Shown here piece after piece: positions 18,083 to 24,043 of a stretch of 64,000 nt of DNA (positions are counted from its first letter, which is position 1; each line of letters opens with the position of its first letter). Origin of the DNA: Methylophilaceae bacterium (GTDB taxonomy: Bacteria; Pseudomonadota; Gammaproteobacteria; Burkholderiales; Methylophilaceae); the NCBI GenBank assembly GCA_009926205.1, contig RFPI01000003.1, forward strand, positions 1-64,000, read 5' to 3'. Position numbers and translations under genes: made by a program. The notes below the pieces were generated by a model. The model was given only the letters and a program-made list of their open reading frames with translations. It was not told where the DNA came from and ran no database searches.

Positions 18083-18111
18083 ATTCTAACGTATTCGCGA
18101 TGTCAAATCAA
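18083..18111 (-). promoter_or_regulatory. Putative sigma-70 promoter of the rpsF operon
   Basis: On the minus strand TTGATT (18106-18111) and TAGAAT (18083-18088) with an ideal 17-bp spacer. The -35 overlaps the stop codon of the upstream MfnE-like gene. Confidence 0.6.
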
Positions 18112-18725
18112 TGTTTTAGATAAATTTGTCGGGCATATAAGCTTAAATCCCAGTCTTTTTGTAAATTTTCTAGGGTTTCAGCAGCGCATAGCCAACAACA
18201 CTGCTGATTTTGTTGCAAAAGCTCAATCAAATAATCATCGATCCACTGGGGTTCTATCTCTGTCGTTTGCTGCAAGGTGTGCATAGGTAATGATTTGACC
18301 AATAATAATTGCGCCATCTCACCGGTTTTGGCCAAACACCACGCAGCCAACCAAGCAGCAATGCTGTCCGCACTGACCCGCCAACTTCGTGGCAAAAGAT
18401 TATCCTGTCGCAACATTGCATAGGGCTGCCAAATCAAGCTACGGCCCTCCTGAATCATTCTGAGAAGGTCATCTTCATGCTCCACAAGTGTAAGCTCAGG
18501 AAGCATTTTTTGCATCACCTGCGCGGTCTGATTCATCGCAGCGATGGCCATAAAATGCGCAGTTTCATCATCAAAGCCGCTCAGCTTCTGCGCTTTTCTA
18601 ACTTGATCTGCATACACCCCACCCCCAGGCACAATCAGCGTCGCTGGCATAGCTGCCAAGGATTGCAACCAAGCTTGCAACCATGGATTGCCTAACAGAC
18701 TTCCGCCCAGTTTAACGATGCGCAT
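18108..18725 (-). CDS. Amino-acid-kinase family protein, MfnE-like (C1 carrier synthesis)
   Basis: A 205-residue kinase of the aspartate/glutamate/uridylate kinase fold. It begins MRIVKLGGSLL, has the glycine loop IVPGGGVYADQV and the later WRVSADSIAAWLA, matching the COG2054 proteins of methylotrophs and methanogens. Methanogen MfnE phosphorylates aminomethyl-furanmethanol phosphate to the diphosphate during methanofuran synthesis (family knowledge); the same step in methylofuran synthesis is the likely role here (inference from neighbours). The ATG at 18725 is preceded by AGGG and overlaps pabB by 14 bp; a longer frame from 18749 is less likely. It is the last gene of the four-gene minus operon. 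Confidence 0.8.
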   Translation of the reverse strand: MRIVKLGGSLLGNPWLQAWLQSLAAMPATLIVPGGGVYADQVRKAQKLSGFDDETAHFMAIAAMNQTAQVMQKMLPELTLVEHEDDLLRMIQEGRSLIWQPYAMLRQDNLLPRSWRVSADSIAAWLAAWCLAKTGEMAQLLLVKSLPMHTLQQTTEIEPQWIDDYLIELLQQNQQCCWLCAAETLENLQKDWDLSLYARQIYLKH

Positions 18726-20112
18726 GTGCACCCTGTGGCAATGTTGCAATTAACTCGAGCATGGCTGAGGCCTTATCCCATGTTTCTTTATATTCTTTTT
18801 CCATTTCAGAATCCGCCACAATGCCGCCACCGGCCCAAAAATCGAATTTCTGGTTTTGGTAAACTGCAGTACGAATCGGGATATTCATATCCATATTCCC
18901 ATCAAAGCCAATATAGCCAATCGCGCCACAATAAACGCCGCGAGAGTCGGGCTCTAGGGACTCAATAATTTGCATAGCCCTCAATTTAGGCGCGCCAGTA
19001 ATTGAGCCACCCGGAAAACAAGCGCGTAGAACATCCACTGCGGTCATATTTTCCGCCAGCTTTCCTCGCACCGTACTGACCAAATGATGCACATTAGTGA
19101 ATGATTCTAAGGTAAATAATTCACTCACTTGAACGCTGCCGGTTTGGCATACTTTTCCCAAGTCATTGCGCAGTAAATCTACGATCATCAAATTTTCTGC
19201 CTGATCTTTGCGACTATGCTGCAACTCCCGTGCATTTTTTGCATCTTGTTGCATATCCTTATGACGAGGTCGCGTTCCTTTGATGGGGCGGGTTTCCACG
19301 GCACCACCAACAACCCGCAAAAAACGCTCTGGCGAGGCTGATAGAATCTGTATTGGCTTGTCAGCCTGCCCAACATTCATCCATGCCATAAAAGGCGCAG
19401 GACTTAACTCCCTCAATTTGCAATAAGCAGAAAAAGCATCACCTGTAGCGGCGACACGAAAACGTTGAGCCAAATTGACTTGATAACAATCTCCTGCATG
19501 GATGAACTGCTGTATCGCTTGGAATGCTTCTGCATATTGAGTCGCCGTCATATTGCTAGTCACCTGACCAGTGACCGCAAGGGGCGAATACTCTACTGAG
19601 GTTTTATCTTCATGGGCTTGCACAGTTGCACACAACTCCTCCCATTGCGCCGCAGTCTGGGGATGTTTGAGATGACTAATTAAGCATGTTTGACCTAACT
19701 CGTGATCAACTACCAAAGCCCAATCGTAGATACCCACTTGCATTTCGGGAATTTCTGAAGCGCTTTGCAAACGCGTATATTGTTCAATTCTGTGCCCCAA
19801 ATCATAAGCAAAATAGCCCAATGCCCCACCTTCAAATGGAAGCTCAAAAGCATCATGAGGAAAACGCGCTAATTGTTGTTTTATGATGTCAAATGGATCT
19901 TCATCACTAAGTGTCGTTTGGCCATTTTCGCTCACGCGGGTGTGGTGAGTGTCAGCGATGATGGTACAAAATGGATTAGCCACCATAATATCAAAGCGGC
20001 CACGCCCGCTGGCAGGCTGCCCACTATCCAGCCACATAGCCCAAGGCATATGGGCAATCCGTGCAAACAAATCTGCACTGTTTGCTTCGTATTTCAAATG
20101 GAGTTTCAGCAT
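18712..20112 (-). CDS. pabB: Aminodeoxychorismate synthase component I
   Basis: Makes 4-amino-4-deoxychorismate from chorismate and ammonia on the way to 4-aminobenzoate. The diagnostic PIKGTRPRH motif has the lysine of PabB where anthranilate synthase (TrpE) has alanine. FPGGSITGAPKLRAM and the GGGIVADSE segment near the C-terminus are also typical. ATG at 20112 gives 466 residues and leaves a 10-nt gap after the MfnF-like gene; an upstream in-frame start at 20148 would overlap that gene. Its place inside a C1-carrier operon fits, because 4-aminobenzoate is a precursor of both folate and tetrahydromethanopterin. Confidence 0.93.
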   Translation of the reverse strand: MLKLHLKYEANSADLFARIAHMPWAMWLDSGQPASGRGRFDIMVANPFCTIIADTHHTRVSENGQTTLSDEDPFDIIKQQLARFPHDAFELPFEGGALGYFAYDLGHRIEQYTRLQSASEIPEMQVGIYDWALVVDHELGQTCLISHLKHPQTAAQWEELCATVQAHEDKTSVEYSPLAVTGQVTSNMTATQYAEAFQAIQQFIHAGDCYQVNLAQRFRVAATGDAFSAYCKLRELSPAPFMAWMNVGQADKPIQILSASPERFLRVVGGAVETRPIKGTRPRHKDMQQDAKNARELQHSRKDQAENLMIVDLLRNDLGKVCQTGSVQVSELFTLESFTNVHHLVSTVRGKLAENMTAVDVLRACFPGGSITGAPKLRAMQIIESLEPDSRGVYCGAIGYIGFDGNMDMNIPIRTAVYQNQKFDFWAGGGIVADSEMEKEYKETWDKASAMLELIATLPQGAHAHR

Positions 20113-20122
20113 ATTTTTTCTA

Positions 20123-21154
20123 TCATAAAGCCAACCTAGCAATGGCATACGCAGGGAAACACATCATGGCCAAATCAAGCAAATGTTGATCTTGCGTGGT
20201 GATTAGTTGCTCTGGACTCATGAAATCGCGTTGACTATTGATTGCCAATTGTTTGACCAGAAAAGCGCCTGCACCCACACCAAGCAAAGCAAGCTGTTGA
20301 GGGATATTGTGTCGATGGACCAATCTTTCTAAAGATTGTTGCAACAATTCTAGTTGAGCTTTACGAAATGCTTGTGCTAACGCCAACCAAACTTGTGTAT
20401 CAGCAGATTCGACATCCGCCCCAACCATACGCGCTAAGCGCCTACAGGTAGCTGTCACCGACTTATCTTTACCATCCGCTGTGGCTGCAAGGTCATGATG
20501 AGCGGCCAATTCAGCGGTTAAACGATAAACATCTGCCGTAGTCGCAAAATATTCTGCAGCTACATTCGTTTGCTTACCCATCCATTCAATCCTTGGTGTC
20601 AGAGCCATTAAAGGTGTGCGTACCACGCCGCTGTATAACAGCTCATCTTCTTGTAATCGATGCGCGTCGTCCAAGCCAATATTCTGAACTTGGCCATCCC
20701 GTACATAAATAAAATCCGTCGTCGTGCTTCCAATATCCACCAATAATACCTGTGCGTAATGTTTTGCCGCCAACTGAGCGCTCGCCATCCAATTTGCTGA
20801 AGCAATTAGACTGGCGTAAAGGTGCGCCTGTGAAATATCGACAAAGCCCTGTTTGCCAGCGTATAGCTTGGCCTGTGGTATCCATTGTGCGATTGCTTGG
20901 GCGATTTGTTCGACGCCATCCATTCTGTTTTCGAACAAATCCACTAACTCCGCCGTCATGGTAACAGCATGCGCCAGTGGTTGATTGTGCACGTGCAAGG
21001 TGAGTTCTTGTGTCACTTGCTGCATACATTGATGTAATTCATCTAGGCCACGCCAAACCGGACATGGTAATTGCCAAATATTTACAATCTGCGCATCTTG
21101 ATTGAGTAAACATGCTTTTAAATGGGCACCGCCGATATCCCAACCTACTATCAA
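20123..21154 (-). CDS. Hydantoinase/oxoprolinase-family protein, MfnF-like (H4MPT-linked C1 pathway)
   Basis: Member of the COG1548 family long annotated as H4MPT-linked C1-transfer pathway protein; the methanogen homologue MfnF joins the furan and tyramine parts of methanofuran (family knowledge). ASKHA-type ATPase marks are visible: GWDIGGAHLKA at the N-terminus, LLVDIGSTTTDF in the middle and LLGVGAGAFLV near the end. The start is TTG at 21154: AAGGAG lies 7 nt before it and the TTG overlaps the TGA of the preceding gene. This gives 343 residues; a longer frame from 21241 would run deep into the upstream gene. Likely role: methylofuran synthesis (inference). Confidence 0.85.
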   Translation of the reverse strand: MIVGWDIGGAHLKACLLNQDAQIVNIWQLPCPVWRGLDELHQCMQQVTQELTLHVHNQPLAHAVTMTAELVDLFENRMDGVEQIAQAIAQWIPQAKLYAGKQGFVDISQAHLYASLIASANWMASAQLAAKHYAQVLLVDIGSTTTDFIYVRDGQVQNIGLDDAHRLQEDELLYSGVVRTPLMALTPRIEWMGKQTNVAAEYFATTADVYRLTAELAAHHDLAATADGKDKSVTATCRRLARMVGADVESADTQVWLALAQAFRKAQLELLQQSLERLVHRHNIPQQLALLGVGAGAFLVKQLAINSQRDFMSPEQLITTQDQHLLDLAMMCFPAYAIARLAL

Positions 21155-22164
21155 TTGAGAGCTCCTTCGATATTGACCATCACTCGCTGATGGGCAAAAG
21201 CCGGCAGTTGTAACTCTTGATTGGCAAGGGATAACAAGCAAGATGCGGGATTGACTTGCATAGCCTGATGCAGCCCTACATAAGAGGTAGTAAGTCGAGG
21301 ATTAATATCCAATATTGCATAGTGTGTTTTTCCTTGATTCTGTTGGATTTGTACATCTACGCCCATATAGCCAAATAGATTCGGCATGGAAATGCCTATT
21401 TGGTGAGCCAGCAACTCAAAGGCAGGCATATGTTCCAGCATGGCATTGAGCTCACAAGCCTGCAGTTTCAAATGTTTTTGTTGCCGCAAAATATGTTGTT
21501 GATTGGCACTGAGTACCGTCACTTCGCCAGCCCTTGATAACATACAAAAGCTTGCAGATAAGCCATCCATAAAGGGTTGCACCAAATAAGCATCAGCACA
21601 ACTGGCTAAGCATGATGTTAAATACGCCACATCACCTAAGTACATCGCCTCGGCACCAGCGCCATCAATGGGTTTAGCAATCCACTCGATCGACGAGTCA
21701 AAAGCATCAGATTGATTGAGCCAATCTAACGCCAAAAAGCTTTCGGCAGTAGGGATTTGATGTCGCTTAAGATGCTGAAAAGTCAGCCATTTATCCCCAA
21801 AAATCCTCACTGCTTCAGTATGACAGCCTAGCAGCAACTTGCCTGACTGCTCCACCATTTGTGTTAAACGCAACAATGTTCCATTGCTCTCTGGCGCAAT
21901 TGGCAAAACCGCATCAGCCGCATCAATCTCACGTTGCCAGATTTCCCAAAGATCGTCTTCATAGGCAATATTGACGACCTCATCGCAGTGACTTGGACTG
22001 GGCAAGCGAATATCTCGAGGACAGATCAGTTGCACATCTGCGATTGTTGAAAAATCGCGCAATACCGCATCACGCATCATGCTACCCTCTTGCAACAGCG
22101 ATGATGAAATCGGCTCACGGTATAATCCACCACCCGTGATAAATTCGCAGACAAATAATCTCAA
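21151..22164 (-). CDS. ATP-grasp ligase, MfnD-like (C1 carrier synthesis)
   Basis: A 337-residue ATP-grasp protein of the COG1821 type. It starts RLFVCEFITGGG, the family N-terminus, and contains GAGAEAMYLGD and the C-terminal metal-binding DINPRLTTSYVG. Methanogen MfnD attaches glutamate to tyramine in methanofuran; the methylotroph carrier methylofuran also has a glutamate chain, so an amino-acid ligase role is likely (inference). The only workable start is TTG at 22164, because an in-frame stop lies three codons upstream. AGGA precedes it by 11 nt and sits inside the divergent neighbour. It overlaps the next gene by 4 bp. First gene of the minus operon. Confidence 0.82.
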   Translation of the reverse strand: MRLFVCEFITGGGLYREPISSSLLQEGSMMRDAVLRDFSTIADVQLICPRDIRLPSPSHCDEVVNIAYEDDLWEIWQREIDAADAVLPIAPESNGTLLRLTQMVEQSGKLLLGCHTEAVRIFGDKWLTFQHLKRHQIPTAESFLALDWLNQSDAFDSSIEWIAKPIDGAGAEAMYLGDVAYLTSCLASCADAYLVQPFMDGLSASFCMLSRAGEVTVLSANQQHILRQQKHLKLQACELNAMLEHMPAFELLAHQIGISMPNLFGYMGVDVQIQQNQGKTHYAILDINPRLTTSYVGLHQAMQVNPASCLLSLANQELQLPAFAHQRVMVNIEGALN

Positions 22165-22830
22165 ATGAAGTTAATTCCTGTTGTCGATTTGATGCAAGGC
22201 CAGGTCGTGCATGCCCGGCTTGGTGAGCGGCAAGATTACCAGCCGATTCAATCGCCATTGTGCGATTCCAGTGAGCCCATCAGCATAATTCAGGCACTAG
22301 CGGCATTATACCGTTTCGATACTTTGTATATTGCGGATTTAGATGCAATACAGGGAAATTCTGGGCAGATAGCATTGCTGAAGCTGATTCAGCAAAATTT
22401 TCCCAAAATTGAGATTTTGTTAGATGCGGGCTTTAACCATGCTGAACAAATCACCCAATACCCGAAAGTCATTACTCCAGTCATAGGCAGTGAGAGCCTA
22501 AGCAGCCTGCAACAACTGCAAAATATCCATCGCCATCTCAATGGCAGTTACGTTTTGTCGCTGGACTTCAAACAAGGATTTTTAGGCTGTCAGGAGATTT
22601 TGCAATCGTCAGAATGCTGGCCTGAAATTGTCATCGCCATGTGCCTTAGCCATGTAGGCAGTGAATTGGGACCAGATTGGGAGTGTTTACAGAGTTGTCA
22701 CGCACTTAAACCAAGCGCTCAATGGATTGCTGCCGGTGGCGTACGCCACCGACAGGATTTGCAAGCATTGGAAAAAATCGGATTTAGCAGTGTCCTGTTA
22801 GCAAGCGCACTGCATAAGCAAGCTATCTAG
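22165..22830 (+). CDS. HisA-like TIM-barrel protein of the methylotrophy cluster
   Basis: A 221-residue protein related to HisA (phosphoribosylformimino-AICAR-phosphate isomerase), COG1411 type. It keeps the HisA-like start MKLIPVVDLMQGQVVHARLG with the first catalytic aspartate (D8), an internal SLDFK strand and the phosphate-binding AAGGV and LLASALH strands. Such proteins are found with C1-carrier genes in methylotrophs and methanogens and have no firmly known reaction that I can name. It starts at the base next to the start codon of the divergent ATP-grasp gene. Likely role: a sugar-phosphate or furan/pterin step in C1 carrier synthesis (inference). It is not the histidine-pathway HisA by context. 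Confidence 0.8.
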   Translation: MKLIPVVDLMQGQVVHARLGERQDYQPIQSPLCDSSEPISIIQALAALYRFDTLYIADLDAIQGNSGQIALLKLIQQNFPKIEILLDAGFNHAEQITQYPKVITPVIGSESLSSLQQLQNIHRHLNGSYVLSLDFKQGFLGCQEILQSSECWPEIVIAMCLSHVGSELGPDWECLQSCHALKPSAQWIAAGGVRHRQDLQALEKIGFSSVLLASALHKQAI

Positions 22831-22837
22831 TCTTGCC

Positions 22838-24043
22838 TTACTCTTCACCACCACTCATATTAGGCGTCGCGCTAATTTTGTGAATCGCTAAGTCTGCGCC
22901 CATGTATTCGTCTTCTATATCCATGCGAATACCTGTACGAATTTTGAGTAAACCATAGACAATAAATCCACCCGCAAGGGCAATCGCGACACCAAGTAGA
23001 GTACCTATCAGTTGTGACATCAGGCTCACGCCACCCATACCACCTAAAGAGCTAGCGCCAAATATCCCTGCCGCAATACCACCCCAAGCACCGCACAAAC
23101 CATGTAATGGCCAAACACCCAATACGTCATCAATCTTTAAGCGATTTTGCGTAAGGGTAAATGCCCAAACAAATAGCGCGCCAGCCACACCACCGGTCAC
23201 CAAAGCGCCCAGTGGATGCATCACATCTGATCCTGCACAAACAGCCACCAAACCAGCCAAAGGGCCGTTATGGACAAAGCCAGGGTCGTTGTCCCCGACC
23301 AACAAAGCCATCAAAGTGCCTCCTACCAAGGCCATTAGTGAGTTGACTGCCACCAAACCGCTTATACCTGACATGGTTTGTGCAGACATCACATTAAAGC
23401 CGAACCAGCCTACCGTGAGTATCCATGCACCTAACGCGAGAAACGGAATATTGGAAGGCGGATAAGCATGCAGGCGTCCATCCTTGCCATATCTTCCATG
23501 GCGCGCACCCAGTAATAGCACGGCGGCCAAAGCAATCCATCCACCCATCGCATGTACCACAACAGAACCAGCAAAATCATGAAAGGCAGCACCAAAAGAA
23601 GAAGTCAACCAATCCTGAATACCAAAGTGCTTGTTCCAAGCGATACCCTCGAAAAATGGATATACGAAACCAACTAACAGGAATGTTGCCGCTAACTGCG
23701 GTTTAAATTTTGCTCGCTCTGCGATACCGCCAGAGATAATGGCTGGAATAGCTGCCGCAAAGGTCAATAAGAAGAAGAATTTAACTAATTCATAGCCATT
23801 ATGCTGGCTGAGTATTTCAGAGGGTTCTAAGAAGCCCGAACCATAAGCGATGAGATATCCAATAAAAAAATAAGCAATGGTTGATACTGAAAAGTCGGCC
23901 ATGATTTTGACCAAGGCATTGACTTGGTTTTTACGTCTAACTGTCCCCACCTCAAGAAAAGCGAAGCCAGCATGCATCGCCAGCACCATAATGGCACCCA
24001 GCAAAATAAACAAAACATCACTAGTGGAAAATTGCATTTCCAT
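22838..24043 (-). CDS. amtB: Ammonium transporter
   Basis: Inner-membrane ammonium channel of the Amt/MEP/Rh family. The 401-residue protein has about 11 hydrophobic helices; family marks are HAGFAFLEVGTVRRKN, the DFAGSVVVHAMGG histidine helix and the GALFVWAF segment. Most Amt genes lie beside glnK, but none is present here. CTGAGGAGAA precedes the ATG by about 6 nt. A sigma-54 promoter with two NtrC-like sites lies upstream, so it should be induced by nitrogen limitation. Confidence 0.95.
   Translation of the reverse strand: MEMQFSTSDVLFILLGAIMVLAMHAGFAFLEVGTVRRKNQVNALVKIMADFSVSTIAYFFIGYLIAYGSGFLEPSEILSQHNGYELVKFFFLLTFAAAIPAIISGGIAERAKFKPQLAATFLLVGFVYPFFEGIAWNKHFGIQDWLTSSFGAAFHDFAGSVVVHAMGGWIALAAVLLLGARHGRYGKDGRLHAYPPSNIPFLALGAWILTVGWFGFNVMSAQTMSGISGLVAVNSLMALVGGTLMALLVGDNDPGFVHNGPLAGLVAVCAGSDVMHPLGALVTGGVAGALFVWAFTLTQNRLKIDDVLGVWPLHGLCGAWGGIAAGIFGASSLGGMGGVSLMSQLIGTLLGVAIALAGGFIVYGLLKIRTGIRMDIEDEYMGADLAIHKISATPNMSGGEE

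Follow-up and report, generated by a model that had tools for sequence, protein, structure and literature searches.

A probable methylofuran operon with a divergent HisA-like gene, orf17, in a Methylophilaceae genome

Genes of the locus

The genes considered here occupy positions 18108 to 22830 of a 64,000-nucleotide (nt) stretch of DNA from a Methylophilaceae bacterium (GenBank assembly GCA_009926205.1, contig RFPI01000003.1, positions 1 to 64,000), the whole of which was analyzed and is called the window. Four of them are co-directional on the minus strand, and a divergent gene on the plus strand, orf17, encodes a HisA-like triosephosphate isomerase (TIM) barrel. The locus is probably an operon for methylofuran synthesis, with Orf17 as a protein of the methylofuran core. 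Methylofuran is essential for formaldehyde oxidation in most methylotrophs. The features are as follows.

18108–18725, minus strand: MfnE/Orf21-like kinase with an amino-acid kinase fold (AA_kinase, PF00696, 29 bits, over the cut-off); assigned step, 5-(aminomethyl)-3-furanmethanol phosphate (F1-P) to the diphosphate (F1-PP)
18712–20112, minus strand: PabB, aminodeoxychorismate synthase component I (TIGR00553, 379 bits, above the cut-off of 328.4)
20123–21154, minus strand: MfnF/Orf9-like protein (TIGR03123, 333 bits, above the cut-off of 244.1)
21151–22164, minus strand: MfnD-like ATP-grasp ligase, TTG start (preATP-grasp_3, PF18301, and ATP-grasp_3, PF02655, over the cut-off)
22162–22167, both strands: head-to-head start codons, the TTG of mfnD (minus) abutting the ATG of orf17 (plus), 0 nt apart
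22165–22830, plus strand: Orf17, HisA-like TIM barrel, ATG start (PF00977/TIGR00734)

All five genes were confirmed at these coordinates, and the layout described in the first-pass annotation was seen. The mfnD and mfnF genes overlap by 4 nt (TTGA), mfnF and pabB are separated by 10 nt, and pabB and mfnE overlap by 14 nt. The MfnF-like protein starts with TTG preceded by an AAGGAG Shine-Dalgarno site, and an alternative start of PabB is possible at 20148.

Several proteins score below the cut-offs of the families after which they are named. The MfnE-like kinase reached 57.1 bits with the NCBIfam MfnE model (NF040622, cut-off 300) and the ATP-grasp protein 101.8 bits with the MfnD tyramine-glutamate ligase model (NF040722, cut-off 400), and both are therefore named MfnE-like and MfnD-like only. 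The MfnF-like protein scored 170 of the 520 bits of the archaeal MfnF equivalog NF040623. Orf17 scored 121.9 bits with TIGR00734 (hisAF_rel, COG1411-type), below a curated cut-off of 179.85 that was passed by no genome among the 259 of the phylum set or the 399 of the order set described below; the protein is accordingly filed as bacterial Orf17 and not as a TIGR00734 equivalog. Archaeal sequences seem to be the basis of the cut-offs missed by the MfnD-like, MfnE-like, and HisA-like proteins. Gene position provides further support for the names. The MfnE-like gene holds a conserved position in 50 loci, and the ATP-grasp protein groups with the proteins that occupy the MfnD position in 48 loci, apart from the MyfA/OrfY cluster. 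By position it is the MfnD counterpart, probably the orf1 of Methylophilaceae.

Conserved neighborhood

The neighborhood sample comprised 80 named loci with flanks of up to 10 kb, plus the window. The gene divergent from orf17 encodes MfnD in 46 loci and MfnF in 25, a total of 71 with the window included. The uninterrupted order MfnE-PabB-MfnF-MfnD with divergent Orf17 was found in 25 loci of many genera, and the arrangement is thus not due to chance. Orf17 is retained in loci that lack MfnD, which places it outside the tyramine-glutamate half of the pathway. Next to MfnE, Methylophaga, Thiobacillus, and relatives have a pyridoxal-dependent decarboxylase in the MfnA position, and the island genes as a whole cover MfnA, MfnB, MfnD, MfnE, and MfnF.

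In all probability these genes form the methylofuran-core section of the "archaeal-type" C1 (one-carbon) gene island, of which they are an ordinary example. The first-pass annotation was right to read the locus as an operon for C1-carrier biosynthesis that includes pabB. Two earlier studies had already established the carrier link of the HisA-like gene and the place of pabB within the set (PMC8141765, PMC4109929). What is new here is the phyletic test, the head-to-head linkage counts, the residue signature of Orf17, and the finding that PabB is the only copy. In a 2014 comparison of Methylophilaceae genomes, orf17, orf1, orf9, and pabB were grouped together (PMC4109929). The full set of that study (orfY, mch, orf5, 7, 17, 1, 9, pabB, orf22, 19, and 20) has the same genes as found here, and its listed run orf17-1-9-pabB would be the order in the window if orf1 is the ATP-grasp gene, as its position suggests. 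Compared to that set, the downstream neighbor here is different: orf17 is followed by an ammonium transporter gene (22838–24043), in a place often taken in relatives by fae, mch, and fhc or by a gene for a SIS-domain protein.

Pathway genes elsewhere in the genome

The host genome (1.5 Mb in 104 contigs) carries the C1 island divided among at least three contigs (C17, C28, and C45), a difference from the island of Methylorubrum. On C45, mch is flanked by ligase genes of the MyfA/OrfY and MyfB/Orf5 types, and on C28, mfnB lies beside DUF447- and DUF6513-type genes (families named from island homologues). Compared to the archaeal MfnA–F set, homologues of MfnB, MfnD, MfnE, and MfnF are all present, the last three below the archaeal equivalog cut-offs, and the best MfnA candidate scored 106 bits with 29% identity to the island MfnA. 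Unlike the archaeal methanofuran set, the tail enzymes MyfA and MyfB are bacterial. An MfnD-like ligase is present here, whereas most tyrosine-type producers are without one. The closest relatives of Orf17 are found in freshwater proteobacterial metagenome-assembled genomes (MAGs) and in one Methylophilaceae MAG.

PabB is the sole aminodeoxychorismate synthase component I of the genome; the one other chorismate-binding gene, on contig C26, is presumably trpE. As the sole copy, PabB would have to serve folate synthesis too, provided that the organism makes folate. The earlier proposal that pabB ties precursor supply to carrier demand therefore stands only in part: the gene does lie inside the operon, but a supply dedicated to tetrahydromethanopterin (H4MPT) does not fit an enzyme with no second copy.

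Phyletic distribution of Orf17

The TIGR00734 profile also matches ordinary HisA in most genomes, so that raw presence is meaningless. In the phylum set of 259 Pseudomonadota genomes, the matches form two groups, with no scores between 70.9 and 81.9 bits, and the upper group consists of 13 genomes, exactly the 13 that carry mch. Orf17 was thus present in 13 of 13 mch-positive genomes and in none of the 246 mch-negative ones (Fisher 4e-22), although any Orf17 with a score in the HisA range would have gone unnoticed. The test that the first-pass annotation had set beforehand, the HisA-like gene being common in genomes without the pathway, gave the opposite outcome. The mfnB gene was found in the same 13 genomes plus one.

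In the order set (399 genomes, 37 of them mch-positive), Orf17 was verified in 35 of the 37, the remaining two being fragmented MAGs. Verification employed two purpose-built profiles, except for three Orf17 sequences that had already been aligned. Absence from the mch-negative genomes of this set rests on a threshold of 1e-19, which missed several true Orf17 proteins, and this is the weaker half of the result. Three genomes of the order have Orf17 and no mch; all are MAGs of 64–85% completeness and all have mfnB.

Among archaeal controls at the strict threshold, both with mfnB match an Orf17-type protein, and Haloferax, which has mch and no mfnB, is without a strong match. Thermus and Deinobacterium also match at this threshold, perhaps through HisA. 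The archaeal controls are only suggestive of a tie of Orf17 to mfnB rather than to mch.

Six streamlined genomes of the same family (1.3–1.4 Mb; G412, G476, G505, G643, G534, and G618) are without mch, mfnB, and a clear Orf17-type match, and one of the borderline matches, that of G412, proved on retrieval to be HisA. This is consistent with a joint loss of the three genes. Two other genomes, G191 (locus L038) and G344 (locus L209), have mfnB but neither mch nor an Orf17-type match. The MfnB of G191 is joined to a FolB-like domain, with a P450-like gene close by, and the mfnB of G344 is accompanied by DUF447- and DUF6513-like genes. These genomes may use a furan without making methylofuran, may keep mfnB as a relic, or may have a gap in the assembly.

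Residues and predicted fold of Orf17

Orf17 was examined in an alignment of 48 members (A2), compared with 15 ordinary HisA sequences. The Orf17 of the window shares 36–49% identity with the 47 others. In sequence searches, the Orf17 of the window by itself matched no solved structure, and the profile matched HisA, PriA, and HisF only. The AlphaFold2 model built from the 48-sequence alignment has a predicted local distance difference test score (pLDDT) of 96, and its best matches are PriA and HisA (Z 21–26), with PriA 4u28 at the top (Z 25.9). By score, Orf17 and HisA are well separated. Full-length Orf17 proteins reach 182–293 bits with their own profile and no more than 51 with that of HisA, whereas true HisA proteins reach 387–397 bits with the HisA profile and 44–46 with that of Orf17.

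Compared to HisA and PriA, Orf17 has the same fold and retains part of the active site. The invariant residues include Asp8 (47/47) and Asp58, Asp87, Glu110, Asp134, Trp152, and His217 (48/48 each). Asp8 and Asp134 are the equivalents of HisA Asp7 (Asp8) and Asp127/129, Trp152 is the equivalent of HisA Trp145, Asp58 is likewise shared with HisA, and the phosphate site of the C-terminal half retains its Gly-Gly. In HisA, Asp176 (S. enterica numbering) is the catalytic acid of ring opening, and roles have likewise been described for Trp145 and for Arg83, which binds the distal phosphate (PMC9088769). The column of Asp176, placed through the loop-6 Asp motif in the 15 HisA sequences, is Val in 44 and Ile in 4 of the 48 Orf17 proteins. 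Arg83 is matched by Arg in only 10 of 48, and the nearby HisA Gly81 corresponds to Asp87 in all 48. The distal-phosphate region of Orf17 has instead its own invariant Asp87 and Glu110. Further features of its own are His217 where HisA has Tyr, and a β1 loop in which Arg22 and Tyr25 are invariant. In the model, Asp8, Asp58, Asp87, Glu110, and Asp134 lie at or just past the C-terminal ends of strands 1–5, on the catalytic face.

These residues suggest a substrate with a single phosphate, the far end of which would be an amine, a carbonyl, or metal-bound, and a reaction that would involve no opening of a sugar ring. A triose phosphate, 4-(hydroxymethyl)-2-furancarboxaldehyde phosphate (4-HFC-P), or F1-P would fit such a site better than a ribosyl-aminobenzoate compound. 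The pattern thus narrows the substrates to a few that can be tested: acyclic or furan compounds with one phosphate and a far end that is cationic or a carbonyl.

Proposed role of Orf17

Hemmann et al. (2021) showed that deletion of orf17 in Methylorubrum extorquens abolishes methylofuran, that no methylofuran-glutamate (MYFR-Glu) intermediates are found in the mutant, and that complementation restores the carrier; methenyl-dephospho-tetrahydromethanopterin (methenyl-dH4MPT) was still present (PMC8141765). The protein of that species (Mext_1835) belongs to the same PF00977 family and lies in the same mfn/fhc/mch context of an archaeal-like C1 island. The authors omitted it from their pathway, as no reaction could be assigned to it (PMC8141765). 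The requirement of Orf17 for the methylofuran core is thus taken from the literature, and the co-occurrence and linkage reported here strongly support it. The first-pass annotation had correctly singled out the HisA-like protein as the candidate for an unassigned step. Its proposal that the operon makes one or both carriers holds for methylofuran, while the option of H4MPT or both was settled in Methylorubrum by the same deletion. As dH4MPT was retained in the mutant, a ribosyl-aminobenzoate substrate is of low priority.

In the scheme that we favor, the MfnD-like ligase would make the glutamyl-tyramine or glutamyl-tyrosine half, and MfnB (on another contig), an aminotransferase step, and the MfnE-like kinase would make the furan half, F1-PP. 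The MfnF-like protein would join the two halves, and MyfA and MyfB (contig C45) would add the glutamate tail. PabB would supply 4-aminobenzoate for dH4MPT and folate. Orf17 would be a TIM-barrel enzyme descended from HisA and required for the methylofuran core, and it can tentatively be placed in the furan branch, at some point on the way from triose phosphate to F1-PP. The phosphate of its substrate would be held at the C-terminal-half site, Asp8 and Asp134 would serve in proton transfer, and Asp87 and Glu110 would face an amine, carbonyl, or metal at the spot that the second phosphate occupies in HisA. Orf17 is an island protein proven necessary for methylofuran in Methylorubrum, where its reaction is an already recognized question, and what makes it noteworthy here is its residue signature.

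Several observations weigh against this assignment. First, MfnA–F of Methanocaldococcus are reportedly sufficient for the methanofuran core without the Orf17 homologue. Second, the MfnB of Methanococcus maripaludis alone makes 4-HFC-P at 25–45 °C (PMC11365854), and together these two points leave no chemically empty step in the archaeal scheme. Third, the missing intermediates in the orf17 mutant could, according to the authors, reflect an analytical limit (PMC8141765). Fourth, the residue argument is drawn from an alignment and a ligand-free predicted model. Finally, mch and mfnB nearly always occur together in Bacteria, and the phyletic profile alone cannot separate methylofuran from H4MPT.

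Alternative explanations

Orf17 may have no reaction of its own and act as a stabilizing or channeling partner of MfnB or MfnF. This is rather unlikely. Its close linkage to MfnD and MfnF would suit a partner, as would the ability of the archaeal enzymes to work alone in vitro (PMC11365854), but the invariant polar set on the predicted catalytic face argues for catalysis.

A role of Orf17 in the MfnC step, the amination of 4-HFC-P to F1-P, is improbable. The protein would carry out this step or make it possible, for instance through an imine proton shift, and so replace or assist a pyridoxal phosphate (PLP)-dependent aminotransferase. Across the 80 loci, class I/II aminotransferases are not conserved in the island, occurring only as three isolated full-length genes and a single fragment, whereas MfnA, MfnB, MfnD, MfnE, and MfnF are present. 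From gene content, amination would be the one core step without an island gene, and Orf17 the one necessary core gene without a step. The new carboxylates where HisA holds the distal phosphate would suit such a role, and the chemistry of HisA and HisF, imine or enaminol proton transfer, also counts in its favor. On the other side, a generic aminotransferase could serve in Bacteria, and Methanocaldococcus MfnC has been shown to be an aminotransferase for this step (cited in PMC8141765). M. jannaschii also has an Orf17 homologue (PMC8141765). A more specific version is very improbable. In it, Orf17 would be a cofactor-free, HisA-descended enzyme that catalyzes the amination/isomerization to the aminomethyl-furan phosphate, methylofuran synthesis would dispense with a dedicated PLP aminotransferase, and overlapping head-to-head 5′ ends would co-regulate orf17 and mfnD.

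An older proposal for MJ0703 would place Orf17 in H4MPT synthesis. The perfect co-occurrence of Orf17 and mch in the phylum sample and the pabB gene in the operon agree with it, but the methenyl-dH4MPT of the orf17 mutant contradicts it in one species (PMC8141765), and the difference between Haloferax and the mfnB-positive archaeal controls is a suggestive point against it; we consider it highly improbable. That Orf17 is a second ProFAR (phosphoribosylformimino-5-aminoimidazole carboxamide ribotide) isomerase or a HisA/TrpF-type backup is scarcely credible and was rejected: the HisA fold and the equivalents of Asp8, Asp127/129, and Trp145 are kept, but Asp176 is replaced in all 48 members, the distal-phosphate Arg is not conserved, two carboxylates are gained, the two profiles score apart, and the genome has a separate HisA on contig C10.

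Further observations on the locus and the island

Measured from canonical start positions, the median distance between the mfnD and orf17 starts is 16 nt over 26 loci. It is 0 in the window and in locus L061, and −1 or −2 in L069 and L080. There is scarcely any promoter space between the two starts, and the two transcripts may therefore overlap at their 5′ ends as antisense. A sigma-70 scan, in which promoter-like sites were fewer than in shuffled sequences, carries no weight here.

Fusions of Orf17 were sought (Rosetta stone approach) and none is claimed, long open frames in GC-rich loci being left aside. No archaeal Orf17 sequences were found in a scan of viral contigs. In some alphaproteobacterial islands (L126, L127, L133, and L134), MfnB is fused to FolB (dihydroneopterin aldolase), which joins a furan step and a pterin step in one protein. 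Homologues of Orf17 were found on 33 plasmids or second replicons, including those of Azospirillum, Paraburkholderia, Rhizobium, and Phyllobacterium, and the island may travel on large replicons.

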